Positions 3,745-34,508 of a stretch of 35,786 bases of DNA are shown one piece after another. This DNA comes from Lachnospiraceae bacterium (GTDB taxonomy: Bacteria > Bacillota > Clostridia > Lachnospirales > Lachnospiraceae), in the NCBI GenBank assembly GCA_017440045.1, contig JAFSIA010000065.1, positions 1-35,786 of the forward strand. The letters are read 5' to 3'. Under the pieces are notes generated by a model, which worked only from the letters and a program-made list of their open reading frames with translations, did not search any database and was not told the DNA's origin. Every line of letters begins with the position of its first letter. Positions within the stretch are counted from its first letter, which is position 1. Both the position numbers and the translations under genes were made by a program.

Positions 3745-5442
3745 GTGAAGAAGAAGCTTATGAACTATCTTGAGAACTATTTAAGTGATCTCAGGAAGGC
3801 AGGGGAACAGCTATATAACGAGACAATGCCTGAATTGACTGATGAACTGTTTATGATTTATTATGAAACGGGTAACAGACTTGAATATGAGAAGGTCTAT
3901 TTTGCCAGAAGGAAGCAGCTTACAGTATTTGGTATGCTGTCTATTCTTGATGGAAAAGATGAGGATATAAAGAAGCTGGAAAGTGTTCTTGTTGACATAT
4001 GTAAAGAAGACTGCTGGAGTATACCTGCTCACGTAAAAAGATATAGACCTGAGTGGCGTATTACAGTTGATCTTTATGCAGCAGAGACAGCATTTTCCAT
4101 TGCAGAGATTATTAGCAAGCTTAAAGATAAACTTTCAGAAGATGTATATAATTTTGCATACCAGGAAGTGTTTAGGAGAGTGCTCACACCATATATTGAA
4201 AGTGAGAAGCCATATGATTGGTGGGAAGAAAGTCAGATAAATTGGTGTGCTGTTGCAAATGGCTCAATTGGCTGTGCGGCATTATATTTGATTGAGGACA
4301 AAGAGCTTCGTGATAAAGTTATTTCGCGAGTTATTGAGTCTATATCACACTATGTTGATGGTTATACCAGCGATGGAGTGTGCAAGGAAGGTATTTCTAA
4401 TTACGTATATGGTCTTAGCTATTATGTAATGTTTTCTGAGATGTTTAGGGAATATACTAATGGAGAAATCAACCTTATTGTAACGGAAAAGTTTAGAAAT
4501 ATCGTGTTGTTCCAGCAAAAGTGCTACTATCCGGGAAATGTTACTCTTAGTTTTTCTGATTGTAGAAAAAATGAAAAGTTTAGAGTGGGACTTACATCAT
4601 ATATGTCTATGTGGTATCCGATTGTAAAGTTTCCTGATTTTGAGATGGCGGCTGATATTAACACTGGATACTGTAGATACCCATTGATATCAAGAGATTA
4701 TTTCTTTACAAAGATGTATTTAGAACATCTTAATACAAAACGCAGTAGTGTAGTAAAAGGAATATGGTATGGACAGATGATTATGTCCGAAGCAAATGTT
4801 TCGATTTGTCAAAGTGTGAACGATTGTGTACTGGCGTCAAAGGGTGGTCATAATGATGAGCCACATAATCACAATGATGTAGGAAGCTTTTTATACATAT
4901 CAGATGGTGAAATGGTTCTTGCAGATTTAGGCGGCGGTGAGTATACCAGAGATTATTTCAATGAGAACAGATACAATCATTTGACATGTCGCTCTCTTGG
5001 CCATAATTTGCCACTGATAGATGGAAAAGAACAGCAACAAGGTGCTCAGTATTGTGCGTCTAATTTCTATGCAGACGGAAATGGAAAGACAGTTATAGAT
5101 ATTGAGAAGGCATATGGGCTAAATGACGATGAAAAGATAACAAGGACCATGGAAATGGATCTTGGAAATGGAAGAGTTAAAATAGAAGACTATTTCAGGA
5201 TATACGAGTGTAGAAGTATTACAGAAAATCTTGTTTGTTTATATGAACCTGTTATGGAAAAAAACAGATTCACTATAAAAACTCCTAAGAGGACTTATGT
5301 GGTATACTGTCCAAATGGAATAGATTATAATGTTTTAAAGGAACAATATAATGATAGAGATGGCAAGCTCATTGATGTATGGCTTATACAGTGGAAAATT
5401 CCTGGAAACAGAGCGGAGATTAGAGTAGAGCAGCAGGTTTAA
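3745..5442 (+). CDS. Heparinase II/III-family protein (polysaccharide lyase-like)
   Basis: An all-helical N-terminal toroid (about residues 1-310) is followed by a beta-sandwich lyase domain. The diagnostic stretch GGHNDEPHNHNDVGSF carries H369, H374 and H376, then LADLGGGEYTRDYF and a ring of aromatic and Arg residues. Family members cleave uronic-acid polysaccharides or oligosaccharides by beta-elimination. At 565 residues with no signal peptide, a cytoplasmic role on imported oligosaccharides is inferred. GTG is chosen as start because AGAGGT lies eight bases upstream, whereas the first internal ATG is 23 bases away. The 3' end overlaps the convergent AraC gene by four bases. The neighbouring arabinofuranosidase suggests plant cell-wall material as substrate, but the exact lyase family is not fixed. 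Confidence 0.8.
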   Translation: MKKKLMNYLENYLSDLRKAGEQLYNETMPELTDELFMIYYETGNRLEYEKVYFARRKQLTVFGMLSILDGKDEDIKKLESVLVDICKEDCWSIPAHVKRYRPEWRITVDLYAAETAFSIAEIISKLKDKLSEDVYNFAYQEVFRRVLTPYIESEKPYDWWEESQINWCAVANGSIGCAALYLIEDKELRDKVISRVIESISHYVDGYTSDGVCKEGISNYVYGLSYYVMFSEMFREYTNGEINLIVTEKFRNIVLFQQKCYYPGNVTLSFSDCRKNEKFRVGLTSYMSMWYPIVKFPDFEMAADINTGYCRYPLISRDYFFTKMYLEHLNTKRSSVVKGIWYGQMIMSEANVSICQSVNDCVLASKGGHNDEPHNHNDVGSFLYISDGEMVLADLGGGEYTRDYFNENRYNHLTCRSLGHNLPLIDGKEQQQGAQYCASNFYADGNGKTVIDIEKAYGLNDDEKITRTMEMDLGNGRVKIEDYFRIYECRSITENLVCLYEPVMEKNRFTIKTPKRTYVVYCPNGIDYNVLKEQYNDRDGKLIDVWLIQWKIPGNRAEIRVEQQV

Positions 5443-27016: not shown

Positions 27017-29008
27017 ATGGGTACACATGGAAATCTGTCTATTAATAGTGAAAATATTTTTCCTATAATTAAAAAGTGGTTATATTCTGACCATGATATT
27101 TTCTTTAGAGAATTAATATCAAATGGCTGTGATGCTATTACAAAGCTTAAAAAGCTTGAGGTTATGGGTGAGTATCAGCTGCCAGATGACAACAAGTTTA
27201 AAATTGAAGTCATTGTAAACGACAAGGAAAAGACTCTTACTTTTATAGATAATGGTATCGGTATGACTGCTGATGAGGTTAATGAGTACATCAATCAGAT
27301 TGCATTCTCAGGTGCTGAAGCATTTCTTAAGCAGTATAAGGATAAGACAAGTGAGGACCAGATTATTGGTCATTTTGGTTTGGGATTTTATTCAGCGTTT
27401 ATGGTAGCTGACAAGGTTACAATTGATACACTTTCATTTAAAGATGGCGCAAAGGCGGTTCATTGGGAGTGCGATGGCGGTACTGAGTTTGATATGGATG
27501 AAGGTGACCGCACAGAGCGTGGTACAAAGATTACTCTTTATTTAAATGATGACAGTCTTGAATTTGCTAATGAATACAGAGCAAAAGAAGTTATTATGAA
27601 GTATTGCTCATTTATGCCAACTGAGATTTATCTCACAAATCCTAATGCAGAAGTGCAGTACGATACAATTGACCCATCTGAGGTTCTTGAGAGTGATACA
27701 GTTATTGAGACTGTAGTGGAGCCTGAAAAAATAGAGGAAAAGGAAAATGAGGATGGTACAAAGGAGACTGTTGTAATCACACCTGAGATGACAAAGACAA
27801 AAATTGTTCGTCGTCCGGTTGCACTTAACGACACAACACCACTTTGGACAAAGCATCCAAATGATTGTACAGAAGAGGAATATAAAGACTTCTATAGAAG
27901 TGTATTCCATGACTTTAAGGAGCCTTTATTCTGGATACATTTAAATATGGATTATCCATTTAACTTAAAGGGTATTTTATATTTCCCTAAGATTAATACA
28001 GAGTATGACAGTATTGAGGGAACTATAAAGCTTTACAACAATCAGGTATTTATCGCTGATAACATTAAGGAGGTTATACCGGAGTTTCTTATGCTCTTAA
28101 AGGGCGTGATTGATTGTCCTGACCTTCCACTGAATGTATCAAGAAGTGCATTGCAGAATGACGGATTTGTAAAGAAGATTTCTGATTACATTACAAAGAA
28201 GGTGGCTGATAAGCTGTCTGGAATGTGTAAAACAGAGAAGGAATCTTATGAGAAGTATTGGGATGATATAAACCCATTTATCAAGTTTGGTTGCTTAAAG
28301 GATGATAAATTCTGTGAGAAGATGAATGATTATATTCTCTTTAAAAATCTTGATGGAAAGTATCTCACACTTCCAGAATGCCTTGAAGAAAACAAGGAAA
28401 AGCATGAGAATACTGTATTCTATGTGACAGATGAAATCGCTCAGGGTCAGTATATTAAGATGTTTAAAGACGAGGGAATGGATGCGGTTATATTAAAGCA
28501 TAATATAGACCAGCCATTTATCACACATCTTGAGACTAAGAATGAAAGCGTCAAGTTCCAGAGAATTGATGCCGACTTGACAGATAACTTCAAGGAAGCA
28601 GAGGAAGAGGCATCAGAGGAGACAAAAGCATCATATGATAAGCTTACAGAGCTCTTTAAGAAGTCACTTAACAACGACAAGCTTGAGATAAAAGTAGAGA
28701 AGCTTAAGAACGAAAAGATTTCCTCAATGGTTACATTATCAGAGGAAAGCAGACGTATGCAGGATATGATGAAGATGTACGGCATGATGGGTATGGACCC
28801 TTCTATGTTTGGTACAAATCTTACACTTGTACTCAATGCAAATAATGACCTTGTAAAGCATCTTATGAACAATGTAGAATCAGAGAATGCATCTTTGTTC
28901 TGCGAACAGCTTTATGACTTGGCAGTGCTTCAGCACGAGCAGCTTAATCCGGATGCAATGGCAAAGTTTGTAGAGAGAAGTAATAAGATAATGATGCTTC
29001 TAGTTTAG
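27017..29008 (+). CDS. htpG: Hsp90-family molecular chaperone HtpG
   Basis: ATP-dependent dimeric chaperone. The N-terminal GHKL ATPase has E32 and N36 in RELISNGCDA, the DNGIGMT loop and the lid GHFGLGFYSAFMVADKV. A charged acidic segment (about residues 236-275) joins it to the middle domain. The middle domain has YFPKINTEYDSIEG and the catalytic-Arg stretch LPLNVSRSALQND, and a C-terminal dimerisation domain follows. At 663 residues it is somewhat longer than E. coli HtpG (624), mostly in the charged segment. AAAAGGAG lies before the ATG. It is transcribed alone behind CIRCE. Confidence 0.97.
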   Translation: MGTHGNLSINSENIFPIIKKWLYSDHDIFFRELISNGCDAITKLKKLEVMGEYQLPDDNKFKIEVIVNDKEKTLTFIDNGIGMTADEVNEYINQIAFSGAEAFLKQYKDKTSEDQIIGHFGLGFYSAFMVADKVTIDTLSFKDGAKAVHWECDGGTEFDMDEGDRTERGTKITLYLNDDSLEFANEYRAKEVIMKYCSFMPTEIYLTNPNAEVQYDTIDPSEVLESDTVIETVVEPEKIEEKENEDGTKETVVITPEMTKTKIVRRPVALNDTTPLWTKHPNDCTEEEYKDFYRSVFHDFKEPLFWIHLNMDYPFNLKGILYFPKINTEYDSIEGTIKLYNNQVFIADNIKEVIPEFLMLLKGVIDCPDLPLNVSRSALQNDGFVKKISDYITKKVADKLSGMCKTEKESYEKYWDDINPFIKFGCLKDDKFCEKMNDYILFKNLDGKYLTLPECLEENKEKHENTVFYVTDEIAQGQYIKMFKDEGMDAVILKHNIDQPFITHLETKNESVKFQRIDADLTDNFKEAEEEASEETKASYDKLTELFKKSLNNDKLEIKVEKLKNEKISSMVTLSEESRRMQDMMKMYGMMGMDPSMFGTNLTLVLNANNDLVKHLMNNVESENASLFCEQLYDLAVLQHEQLNPDAMAKFVERSNKIMMLLV

Positions 29009-29033
29009 GATGTAAATTAATTCTTTTATTTGT

Positions 29034-29060
29034 ATATCTCCCGCTGTCTGCGGGAGATAT
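29034..29060 (+). terminator. Strong hairpin after htpG (terminator-like, no T-tract)
   Basis: ATATCTCCCGC pairs perfectly with GCGGGAGATAT over 11 bases around TGTCT, 26 bases after the htpG stop. The usual run of T is missing on either side, so it may end transcription weakly or act as a 3'-end stabiliser. Confidence 0.6.
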
Positions 29061-29061
29061 A

Positions 29062-29070
29062 TGATATAAT
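29062..29070 (+). promoter_or_regulatory. Possible extended -10 promoter upstream of the 64-bp array
   Basis: TGATATAAT is a perfect extended -10; no -35 match is seen at 16-18 bases. If active, RNA would begin near 29077 and run through the whole array into the 72-codon ORF. The stretch to 29160 also holds a small hairpin (TCATAGC/GCTATGA, 29074-29096) and a 13-base direct repeat (CTTTTTTATAAAT at 29110 and 29144). Confidence 0.4.
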
Positions 29071-29160
29071 TAGTCATAGCTGTTTTGTGGCTATGATTTG
29101 AAAAATGTTCTTTTTTATAAATCAAATATATTCAGTATATCCCCTTTTTTATAAATTATA

Positions 29161-29672
29161 AGAGACAATGAGACACGAAGGAAGCTAATCTCTACCTAAA
29201 GTGTGTGAAAAAGCAAGAATAGGAAGAGGCAATGAGACACGAAGGAAGCTGGTCTCTACCTAAAGTGAATGAAAAAGCGAGAATGGTAAGAGAAGATGAG
29301 ACACGAAGGAAGCTGGTTTCTACCTAAAGAGATGAAAAAAGCAAGAATAGGAAGAGACAATGAGACACGAAGGAAGCTGGTCTCTACCTAAAGAGATGAA
29401 AAAAGCAAGAATAGGAAGAGACAATGAGACACGAAGGAAGCCAGTCTCTACCTAAAGAGATGAAAAAAGCAAGAATAGGAAGAGACAATGAGACACGAAG
29501 GAAGCTGGTCTCTACCTAAAGTGAATGAAAAAGCGAGAATAGGAAGAGACAATGAGACATGAAGGAAGCTGGTCTCTACCTAAAGTGAATGAAAAAGCGA
29601 GAATAGGAAGAGACAATGAGACATGAAGGAAGCTGGTCTCTACCTAAAGTAAGTGAAAAAGCAAGAAAGGTA
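29161..29672 (+). repeat. Tandem array of eight 64-bp units
   Basis: Units start at 29161, 29225, 29289, 29353, 29417, 29481, 29545 and 29609. The period is exactly 64 every time, and a ninth partial unit starts at 29673. Each unit opens with AGAGACAATGAGACACGAAG and then carries GGTCTCTACCTAAAG. Differences between units are mostly single substitutions, and no indel is seen. Because 64 is not a multiple of three, the array is not a repeated protein domain. The join between units plus the unit start (TAGGAAGAGAC) can pair with GTCTCTACCTA, giving a hairpin of ten pairs with one A-A mismatch and a 21-base loop, repeated eight times. There are no unique spacers, so it is not CRISPR. Function is unknown. 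Confidence 0.97.
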
Positions 29673-29689
29673 AGAGAAGAGGAAAAAAT

Positions 29690-29908
29690 ATGGAAAATAT
29701 TATAAGAATAGCTACAGAAGAAATAGCAAGATTAGAGAAGCTAAATAAAACCGTGGATATGCATTTAATGAATGTTCCTGAGGGATGCTTGAAATGGCAG
29801 AATGTAAATGGATTAGTGATGGGAAGAGAGGTGGTGGTAAGCTATGAGACTCAAGGTTTACCATTGGATATAGGTGTTGTAAAGAGGATAGTTGAACAAA
29901 TATTATGA
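29690..29908 (+). CDS. Small hypothetical protein, 72 aa
   Basis: Begins 17 bases after the last full repeat unit. The partial ninth unit supplies the GAGGAAAAA ribosome binding site. The N-terminal helix (NIIRIATEEIARLEKLNK) is followed by VPEGCLKW and VSYETQGLPLDIGVVKRI. The LPEG-like segment vaguely recalls the N-terminal part of longer Lachnospiraceae proteins of unknown function, so it may be a shortened relative; this is weak. No signal peptide or membrane helix. It overlaps the convergent gene by six bases. Confidence 0.6.
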   Translation: MENIIRIATEEIARLEKLNKTVDMHLMNVPEGCLKWQNVNGLVMGREVVVSYETQGLPLDIGVVKRIVEQIL

Positions 29909-30424
29909 AATCAACTCATTAATAAACTTCTCACAAACCCCATCCCAAGTCTTCTCAAGTGTTTTATCCATACTAAATATATTAAGAGAAGCCATGGATA
30001 TGCAATCTAAAGTAGCAGTAGTAACCTCTTCGCCGCTCATTCCATGCTTACTATCATATCTTATATTAATATACAATCCCCCAACATCTTTAAGCGCCAA
30101 GCCACAAGGATTATCGCTCAATAGCTTTTCAGTGTAAGAAGCAGAAGCCTTCAACACTATTTTGAATCTAAGGGGAAGTTTGCTTCCTTTAATGAGATTA
30201 AAGCAATGTGGTTTAATCATTCTCCATGTAGATAAAGCCCTGTCTGTCAATGCTTCAAGCTCATCAGTAGTGTAAAAGTCACTATGGATATGTCCATCAA
30301 TTGTAAATGTGTTATATGTAGTGATTGTTGCTTCTTCTAACAGGAAGTTATCAAAGGTTTCCTTTACAAGAAGACAGTTCATTAATTTTTTTATATCTGA
30401 TGAAGGGATATTAATGCTGTTCAT
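29903..30424 (-). CDS. Conserved hypothetical protein, 173 aa (possibly DUF5721)
   Basis: A cytoplasmic protein with no signal or membrane segment. Its start, IKKLMNCLLVKETFDNFLLEEATITTYNTFTIDG, looks like a family of uncharacterised clostridial proteins that I associate, from memory only, with DUF5721. FKIVLKAS and the Gly-Gly-Leu-Tyr-Ile-Asn-Ile-Arg-Tyr-Asp stretch suggest a mixed alpha/beta fold. AAGGAG (complement at 30433-30438) lies before the ATG. It is transcribed alone and converges on the 72-codon ORF. Function is unknown. Confidence 0.75.
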   Translation of the reverse strand: MNSINIPSSDIKKLMNCLLVKETFDNFLLEEATITTYNTFTIDGHIHSDFYTTDELEALTDRALSTWRMIKPHCFNLIKGSKLPLRFKIVLKASASYTEKLLSDNPCGLALKDVGGLYINIRYDSKHGMSGEEVTTATLDCISMASLNIFSMDKTLEKTWDGVCEKFINELIS

Positions 30425-33993: not shown

Positions 33994-34052
33994 TGTAAAA
34001 GAGTGTTACTTGAAAGGTGACAATTTATATTTTAACAAAAGGAGATATGAAA

Positions 34053-34508
34053 ATGGGTGATTACAATTTTGATTATTCTTATGTGACAAATGCACCAGAT
34101 GAAGTGGCTGATATCGCTATAACAGCAATGATAATATCATTGATAGTTTCATTGATATTGATGGTTGTATTTGTTTTTGTGTGCAGAAAGATTGCTCTTG
34201 GCAAAAATCTTTCACCAAATTATATGTGGTTTGGTCTTTTAGGTGTTATTGGTGTTATTATTGTGGCAGTTATACAGCCAAAGCAGGCATATAACCCATA
34301 TCAGGATCCAAGATACAATCCATATAACAACCAGAATCCATATATGAATCAGAATCCATACGCAAATCAGAATCAGTATGGTCAGATGAATCAATATAAT
34401 GGACAGTATAATTCAAGCCTTGGACAGAGCAAGGTTTGTGGTAAGTGTGGAGCTTCGGTAGGAGCTGACACAGATTTCTGCCCATTCTGTGGTAATAAGG
34501 TTAAATAA
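34053..34508 (+). CDS. Membrane protein with Asn/Pro/Tyr-rich repeats and a zinc ribbon, 151 aa
   Basis: Two membrane helices (about 20-45 and 58-76) are followed by a low-complexity stretch with repeats of the type NPY-x-NQ and NQY-G-Q. A C-terminal zinc ribbon, CGKCGASVGADTDFCPFCG, follows. The ATG at 34053 has AAGGAG eight bases before it; the ATG at 34047 is too close and a GTG at 34017 lacks a site. No specific function is known for this architecture. The eutH gene starts two bases after the stop, so the two are co-transcribed and probably coupled in translation. Confidence 0.75.
   Translation: MGDYNFDYSYVTNAPDEVADIAITAMIISLIVSLILMVVFVFVCRKIALGKNLSPNYMWFGLLGVIGVIIVAVIQPKQAYNPYQDPRYNPYNNQNPYMNQNPYANQNQYGQMNQYNGQYNSSLGQSKVCGKCGASVGADTDFCPFCGNKVK

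Follow-up and report, generated by a model that had tools for sequence, protein, structure and literature searches.

Tandem hairpin repeats downstream of htpG in a Lachnospiraceae bacterium and their probable place in a genus-restricted repeat family

The DNA analyzed here (the window) is a stretch of 35,786 bases from a Lachnospiraceae bacterium, namely, the entire contig JAFSIA010000065.1 (C49) of assembly GCA_017440045.1 (G000; 1,905,732 bases in 68 contigs, 74% complete). Between htpG and a small open reading frame (ORF), it carries an array of direct repeats for which the original prediction had claimed eight exact 64-bp tandem units, overlooking an inverted repeat within each unit. The features of this locus are listed below.

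27017..29008, + strand: htpG, the upstream co-oriented gene
29160..29677, + strand: tandem array of 8 direct units of exactly 64 bases (Tandem Repeats Finder, ORF list)
29189..29229, + strand: unit 1 hairpin, 41 bases, TCTCTACC.. / ..AGGAAGAGG
29230..29252, + strand: example of the 23-base purine-rich linker
29253..29293, + strand: unit 2 hairpin, right arm GGTAAGAGA, with a bulged A
29317..29357, + strand: unit 3 hairpin
29381..29421, + strand: unit 4 hairpin, TCTCTACCTA / TAGGAAGAGA, with one A-A mismatch
29445..29485, + strand: unit 5 hairpin
29509..29549, + strand: unit 6 hairpin
29573..29613, + strand: unit 7 hairpin
29637..29677, + strand: unit 8 hairpin, right arm GGTAAGAGA
29690..29908, + strand: co-oriented ORF of 72 amino acids (aa), downstream of the array

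Tandem Repeats Finder delimited the array at 29160-29677, with a period of 64, 8.1 copies, and 92% matches. All seven spacings equal 64, which confirmed the eight exact units and, counting units from 29161, 18 of the 64 columns are variable with no change in length. The self-match of the array at a lag of 64 was 0.915, compared to at most 0.393 in 1,000 base shuffles. The idea that the array grew from its middle proved only partly right, since the unit distance matrix is a mosaic: units 3 to 5 form one block, units 6 and 7 (one base apart) form another, and unit 2 differs from unit 6 at three bases, as expected from duplication of blocks.

Each unit consists of a 41-base imperfect inverted repeat, with 10-base arms, and of a purine-rich linker of 23 bases. 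The arms GTCTCTACCTA and TAGGAAGAGAC (11 bases, 91% complementary) start 32 bases, or half a period, apart, with 21 bases between them and 21 more to the next left arm. The stem is broken by an A-A mismatch or a bulged A, and the last hairpin (unit 8) stops 12 bases ahead of the start codon of the 72-aa ORF. The two-arm pattern occurred five times in the window (shuffled mean, 0.00), and the whole array folded better than its shuffles (z = -2.22; 2 of 100 shuffles were as good).

Three further arrays, with periods of 64, 74, and 74, were found in the window's assembly. A search with the window array yielded those on contigs C53 (7 units with a period of exactly 64) and C44 (4 units with a period of 74), and a search with the two-arm pattern yielded that on C31 (4 units, three spacings all exactly 74, three full units 62% identical). 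Neither of two covariance models, the first built from 19 units and the second (R2) from 35 units of four genomes, reported an array beyond these four in the assembly. Among eight genomes of the genus (G000 to G007), R2 gave 23 matches in G000, 24 in G007, 31 in G002, and 19 in G006 at E values up to 0.5, counts that include weak matches (e.g., G007:C184 and G006:C43:149112) excluded from the 19 places considered below; nothing better than an E value of 0.1 was obtained with R2 in G001, G003, G004, and G005. Arrays are present in four of the eight genomes, the window's own and three of the seven others. HtpG of these three carriers is 94, 89, and 88% identical to that of the window, compared to 84, 84, and 82% for three noncarriers; G001 gave no HtpG match.

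Beyond the genus, the first model had no match in 53 genomes at E values up to 0.1. At E values up to 0.001, R2 matched 1 of 397 sampled genomes of the family, which was the window's own; this sample, to which stricter filters were applied, evidently lacks the other three carriers. A pattern of 15 fixed and two 2-fold bases matched 45 stretches in named genomes. The three stretches with multiple matches all belong to one Lachnospiraceae genome, apparently that of carrier G007, and the 42 single matches were taken as chance because none was repeated, as were strict-pattern matches in G025 and G035. We rejected a phage or plasmid origin, as phage and plasmid collections searched in distant mode contained no similar DNA, and the open-licence literature yielded nothing on such repeats in Lachnospiraceae.

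Altogether, 102 units were delimited at 19 places (the window and 18 others, designated by L numbers), which represent 14 distinct loci in four genomes, with 4 to 6 loci found per genome; we set the unit borders ourselves, and several edge units are doubtful. Homologous units, on whose existence outside the window the original prediction had made its reading depend, therefore occur at 18 other places in the genus. We conclude that the array very probably belongs, as a single locus, to a family of BOX- or MIRU-like stem-loop repeats that is restricted to the genus and whose members are dispersed and amplified locally. As judged by eye, the hairpin measures about 31 to 41 bases across the family, and a linker akin to that of the window (about ATGAGnCACAGAGGAA) is present in arrays of G006 and G007. 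Of 83 unit spacings, 77 fall within 61 to 65 bases (70 at 63 or 64) and 6 are exactly 74, so that the proposal of a length kept while sequence drifts holds strictly for the window array and, across the family, to a close approximation.

The htpG locus is shared by the window and L098 of G006, as identified by blastn of the neighborhoods, and by L116/L161 of G002, which was added by an HtpG search. It contains 8 units in each of the three genomes, with three different arm sequences. Those of G000 are TCTCTACCTA/TAGGAAGAGA, those of G006 are TCATACAGTAAA/TTTACTGTATGA except in the first unit, which is of the older type, and the majority of G002 units have TCTTACCAT/ATGGTTAGA. By eye, no array lies 3' of htpG in G003, G004, and G005; the G007 contig stops within htpG. 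We evaluated an eight-pair stem over 35 units from four genomes. Paired cells amounted to 85.0% (81.4% in shuffles), the covariation score was 0.193 (shuffled mean, 0.133), and 13 cells were changed on both sides (5.5 in shuffles); none of 500 shuffles reached any of these values, and all six slid structures were lower on the three measures. As relatedness makes such shuffles generous, we also compared the arms directly. Cognate left and right arms paired better than arms taken from other species at 18 of the 19 places (mean difference, -2.79 kcal/mol), and the mean cognate duplex was -10.25 kcal/mol, compared to -5.28 kcal/mol with right arms shuffled, in a test that included all 102 units and hence some doubtful edge units. 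Because arms are common within a species, we judged the independent arm states to be about four. Sequence comparison shows that the arms differ between species yet stay complementary. The original prediction had suggested structured RNA or protein-binding sites; the homologous units at 18 other places and the co-changing arms support the word "structured," and they do not favor action as RNA over action as DNA or the reverse.

On contigs C40 and C42 of G006, new arms (TCATACAGT../..ACTGTATGA) are found in every unit except the first, which in each array retains the older TCTACC/GGTAAGA arms, and the linkers are locus specific. This parallel switch might reflect recognition of the arms by a trans-acting factor whose specificity changed in one lineage, an idea that we consider distinctly doubtful; if true, a parallel switch with pairing kept would represent coevolution of the hairpin array with a binding partner. 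Copying of hairpins between G006 loci is a duller alternative, and the likeness of the last units of C40 and C42 in both loop and arms speaks for some copying.

A trans-acting protein also figures in an alternative explanation, in which the inverted arms would be bound as double-stranded or cruciform DNA, with copies on the same face of the helix acting cooperatively. In favor of this view, palindromic sites suit dimeric proteins, several loci within one species have similar arms but different fillers, and the spacings cluster at 63 to 64 and at 74, which approximates 6 and 7 helical turns of 10.5 bp. However, this helical fit is post hoc and involves two period classes only, and the arm-to-arm distance within a unit varies (about 23 to 33 bases, by eye), whereas the period does not. 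Moreover, two arm types adjoin in one G006 array (first unit versus the rest), and no candidate protein was identified. We regard such DNA-level sites as unlikely, and the gene setting described below bears on them as well.

The number of units differs between species at shared loci: 8 in G007 versus 1 in G006 at the galM locus, 1 in G007 versus 7 in G006 at the L096/L097 locus, and 8 in G007 versus none in G006 at a germination-gene locus. With one genome per species, these are differences between species, and they come from fragmented assemblies (G007 is a metagenome bin) in which short reads may misjudge unit numbers in 512-base arrays. Variation in copy number is also what the neutral alternative named in the original prediction would produce. 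In such a neutral minisatellite, slippage would size the arrays and hairpin-templated repair, known as quasi-palindrome correction, would copy arm onto arm without selection. The range from 0 or 1 to 7 or 8 units at shared loci, the mosaic unit relations, the toleration of single-unit and empty sites, and the lack of a common function among the neighboring genes (by eye) agree with this alternative. Yet a mismatch or bulge persists at about the same stem place in many arrays (A-A in the window, a bulged A in other arrays, T-T at the htpG locus of G002), although correction should erase it, and the C31 array keeps a spacing of exactly 74 although its units are only 62% identical. Together with the strict co-orientation reported below, these observations make a neutral origin improbable in our view.

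Flanking DNA is shared to different extents. L090 and L093 have the downstream gene alone in common. In G002, about 100 bases of 5' flank are common to L102, L103, and L104 despite differing gene contexts, and a 3' stretch is common to L102, L103, and L159, which indicates that the array was copied there together with its flanks. Other repeats lie nearby. By eye, a further dispersed repeat with many small hairpins (about TATAGGAAAGTTC...CGCTCCGCGAGGA) is visible near L104, L159, L160, and the L096/L097 flanks (G002 and G006). At about 600-700 of L096, tandem copies of a roughly 10-base unit (AAGCAACGAG/A) directly follow the single hairpin unit and precede the next gene, and near a G002 array, L030 carries 12.7 tandem copies of an 18-base unit at 695-923.

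The downstream gene is co-oriented with the purine-rich strand of the array at all 18 places that have one (L160 stops at the contig end), including L101, where tRNA-Tyr and tRNA-Leu come next on that strand. Upstream genes run in the same direction at 17 of 19 places, those of L095 and L159 being divergent. These counts disregard ORFs that lie over the arrays, as well as short ones on the opposite strand, of 84 aa at L101 and of 68 aa at L103. Such co-orientation would not be expected of a symmetric DNA site. A terminator-like hairpin lies directly 5' of the array at L093, L094, and L100, i.e., three of the four places scanned (L094 and L100 are one locus), and by eye the start of L160 resembles these terminator-preceded arrays; this position is also compatible with DNA-level sites, the window lacking such a hairpin. 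When the whole hairpins of 88 units were folded, the sense strand was favored in 56 and the antisense strand in 24, units within an array being nonindependent. An excess of G-U pairs was dropped as proof of RNA because it was not decisive: G-T outnumbered A-C by 13 to 6 over five outer pairs at nine places and by 18 to 14 on A2, where some rows were out of register.

The best overall explanation, to which we assign a probability of about 0.6, is a genus-restricted family of hairpin repeats in which the hairpin is kept and which has a proposed role in read-through. Single units would arise or arrive in intergenic DNA, sometimes directly behind a transcription terminator, and would be multiplied locally via slippage or unequal exchange, while the stem would be maintained by selection or by repair bias. 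RNA polymerase reading through would then produce a run of hairpins with purine linkers between them, which could affect the co-oriented downstream gene, much as has been proposed for BOX elements. More specifically, read-through, decay of the RNA, or translation of the downstream gene may be altered to an extent proportional to the unit number, a suggestion that we put forward tentatively and at less than even odds. The strict orientation and the toleration of a bulge are in line with action as RNA; the nearly fixed period and the undecided strand test are in line with action as DNA.

Several results weigh against this explanation. Of 18 arrays compared by duplex energy, 11 paired better in the sense strand and 7 in the antisense strand (2 of the 5 L159 units were used and L160 was excluded), a lack of preference for RNA that suits DNA-level sites. 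When four stretches of the window array were folded singly, three had z scores of about 0 and one, which holds the whole stem in register, had a z score of -2.05. The scan before the window array revealed no terminator-like site and no promoter-like site on the + strand, and promoter-like sites were no commoner than in shuffles at all four places scanned. At galM in G007, a promoter-like site, whose second hexamer is kept in G006, is located 3' of the array, so the array there may be outside the downstream mRNA. With respect to covariation, a first test on 19 units from one genome detected none; in the 35-unit test, the both-side-changed pairs (2) and the further pair types (8) were not above shuffles, and some slid structures equaled or beat the true stem on these two measures. 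The single unit of L096 is the exception in the arm comparison, its arms pairing worse than noncognate ones. Finally, several edge units are doubtful, for example the first of L101, which was absent from the R2 matches.

This family is a compact system, present in four species of one genus, in which a hairpin repeat can be traced at shared loci as it arises, expands locally, and disappears. In-step arm switching at a near-fixed period would allow RNA structure to be tested directly against a DNA-binding partner and against hairpin-templated repair; for BOX, MIRU, and similar repeats, this question is, to our knowledge, open.

We compared the family with known repeat systems at the level of organization. 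The boxB unit of BOX elements is about 45 bases long, compared to 63 to 74 bases for the units here, and MIRU elements are oriented along neighboring genes, as are the arrays of this family. Within the excerpts of the papers cited hereafter, BOX elements of Streptococcus pneumoniae are described as dispersed and intergenic, with a tandem core (boxB) of variable copy number and predicted transcribed stem-loops, with length variation between strains, and with few clear relationships to neighbor function (PMC3049150). The family of the window shares the tandem core of variable copy number and the stem-loop potential. BOX elements also have distinct end modules (PMC3049150), which have a partial parallel in the about 100 common 5' bases of three G002 loci; however, no module is common to all five G002 loci aligned, as a boxA-(boxB)n-boxC organization would imply. 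Moreover, BOX elements are overrepresented between convergent genes (PMC3049150), whereas here the gene downstream of the array is co-oriented with it in all 18 cases. The MIRU-VNTR loci of Mycobacterium comprise tandem units of 46 to 101 bp at 41 loci in H37Rv, some of them variable in copy number (PMC3914561). Homologous tandem units at scattered loci (19 places here) make our repeats the same kind of element, which does not amount to membership in the mycobacterial family; they differ from the latter by fewer loci (4 to 6 per genome) and by arms that co-change between species. Stem-loop families have also been described in 40 genomes (PMC2267715). We consider the repeats of the window to represent a new family, although of a sort already known.

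REP/BIME elements and the GTAG and CGTC palindromes are likewise imperfect, intergenic, and clustered, with some mismatches or bulges in the stem and subfamilies carrying alternative complementary stem residues (PMC3733652, PMC2817692). The repeats could accordingly be palindromes mobilized by a REP-associated tyrosine transposase (RAYT), and Y1_Tnp (PF01797) matches are present in six of the eight genus genomes, including all four array carriers. However, the two intact Y1_Tnp proteins, from G002 and G007, which were the ones scanned (fragments and stop-containing copies were left out), are IS200 proteins (160.6 and 158.6 bits, NCBIfam) and score 37.2 and 37.9 with the RAYT model, whose cutoff is 80. 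Six Y1_Tnp loci contained no linker or right-arm word and scattered left-arm words only, our units are direct repeats, and no outer GTAG or CGTC tag was seen by eye, without a systematic scan, GTAG being found inside some stems. In addition, the GTAG and CGTC repeats are placed in phyla other than Firmicutes (PMC3733652, PMC2817692). Such mobilization is thus very improbable. In the window's own assembly, G000:C2:28798-29889 contains pieces resembling two adjacent broken Y1_Tnp transposase genes.

Other identities were rejected. The window had no match to an Rfam 15 family at gathering scores, and 29000-29950 had none at E values up to 1. A protein-coding repeat was dismissed because the window array contains no ORF of at least 60 aa; open frames are possible in other arrays, mostly of period 63 (e.g., 70 aa in sense in L097), and are not common to the 64-base arrays. 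Units start with ATGAGnCAC in several arrays, and by eye the short peptides differ between loci. At 4061-4664 of oriented L101, the 63-base array is spanned by an uninterrupted antisense frame of 200 aa, whose product would have a repeat of 21 residues; such a frame probably arises simply because the period is a multiple of three. A CsrA sponge acting through GGA words was dropped because G002 units have hardly any GGA (by eye), and an antisense terminator array because a single antisense terminator-like site was found inside an array (L093) at the four places scanned.

Two observations concern protein-coding sequences of the window. The 18-base repeats at 34317-34374 lie inside the ORF at 34017-34508 and encode a repeated NPY/NQ-rich stretch. 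The 72-aa ORF downstream of the array aligns with the first and last parts of a protein of 285 to 323 aa encoded 3' of the arrays at the orthologous loci of G006 and G002; the window copy lacks the middle part. The long forms of this protein carry SEVIIANIL, PDF, and YWEHAG stretches, which we take to recall a PD-(D/E)XK nuclease.
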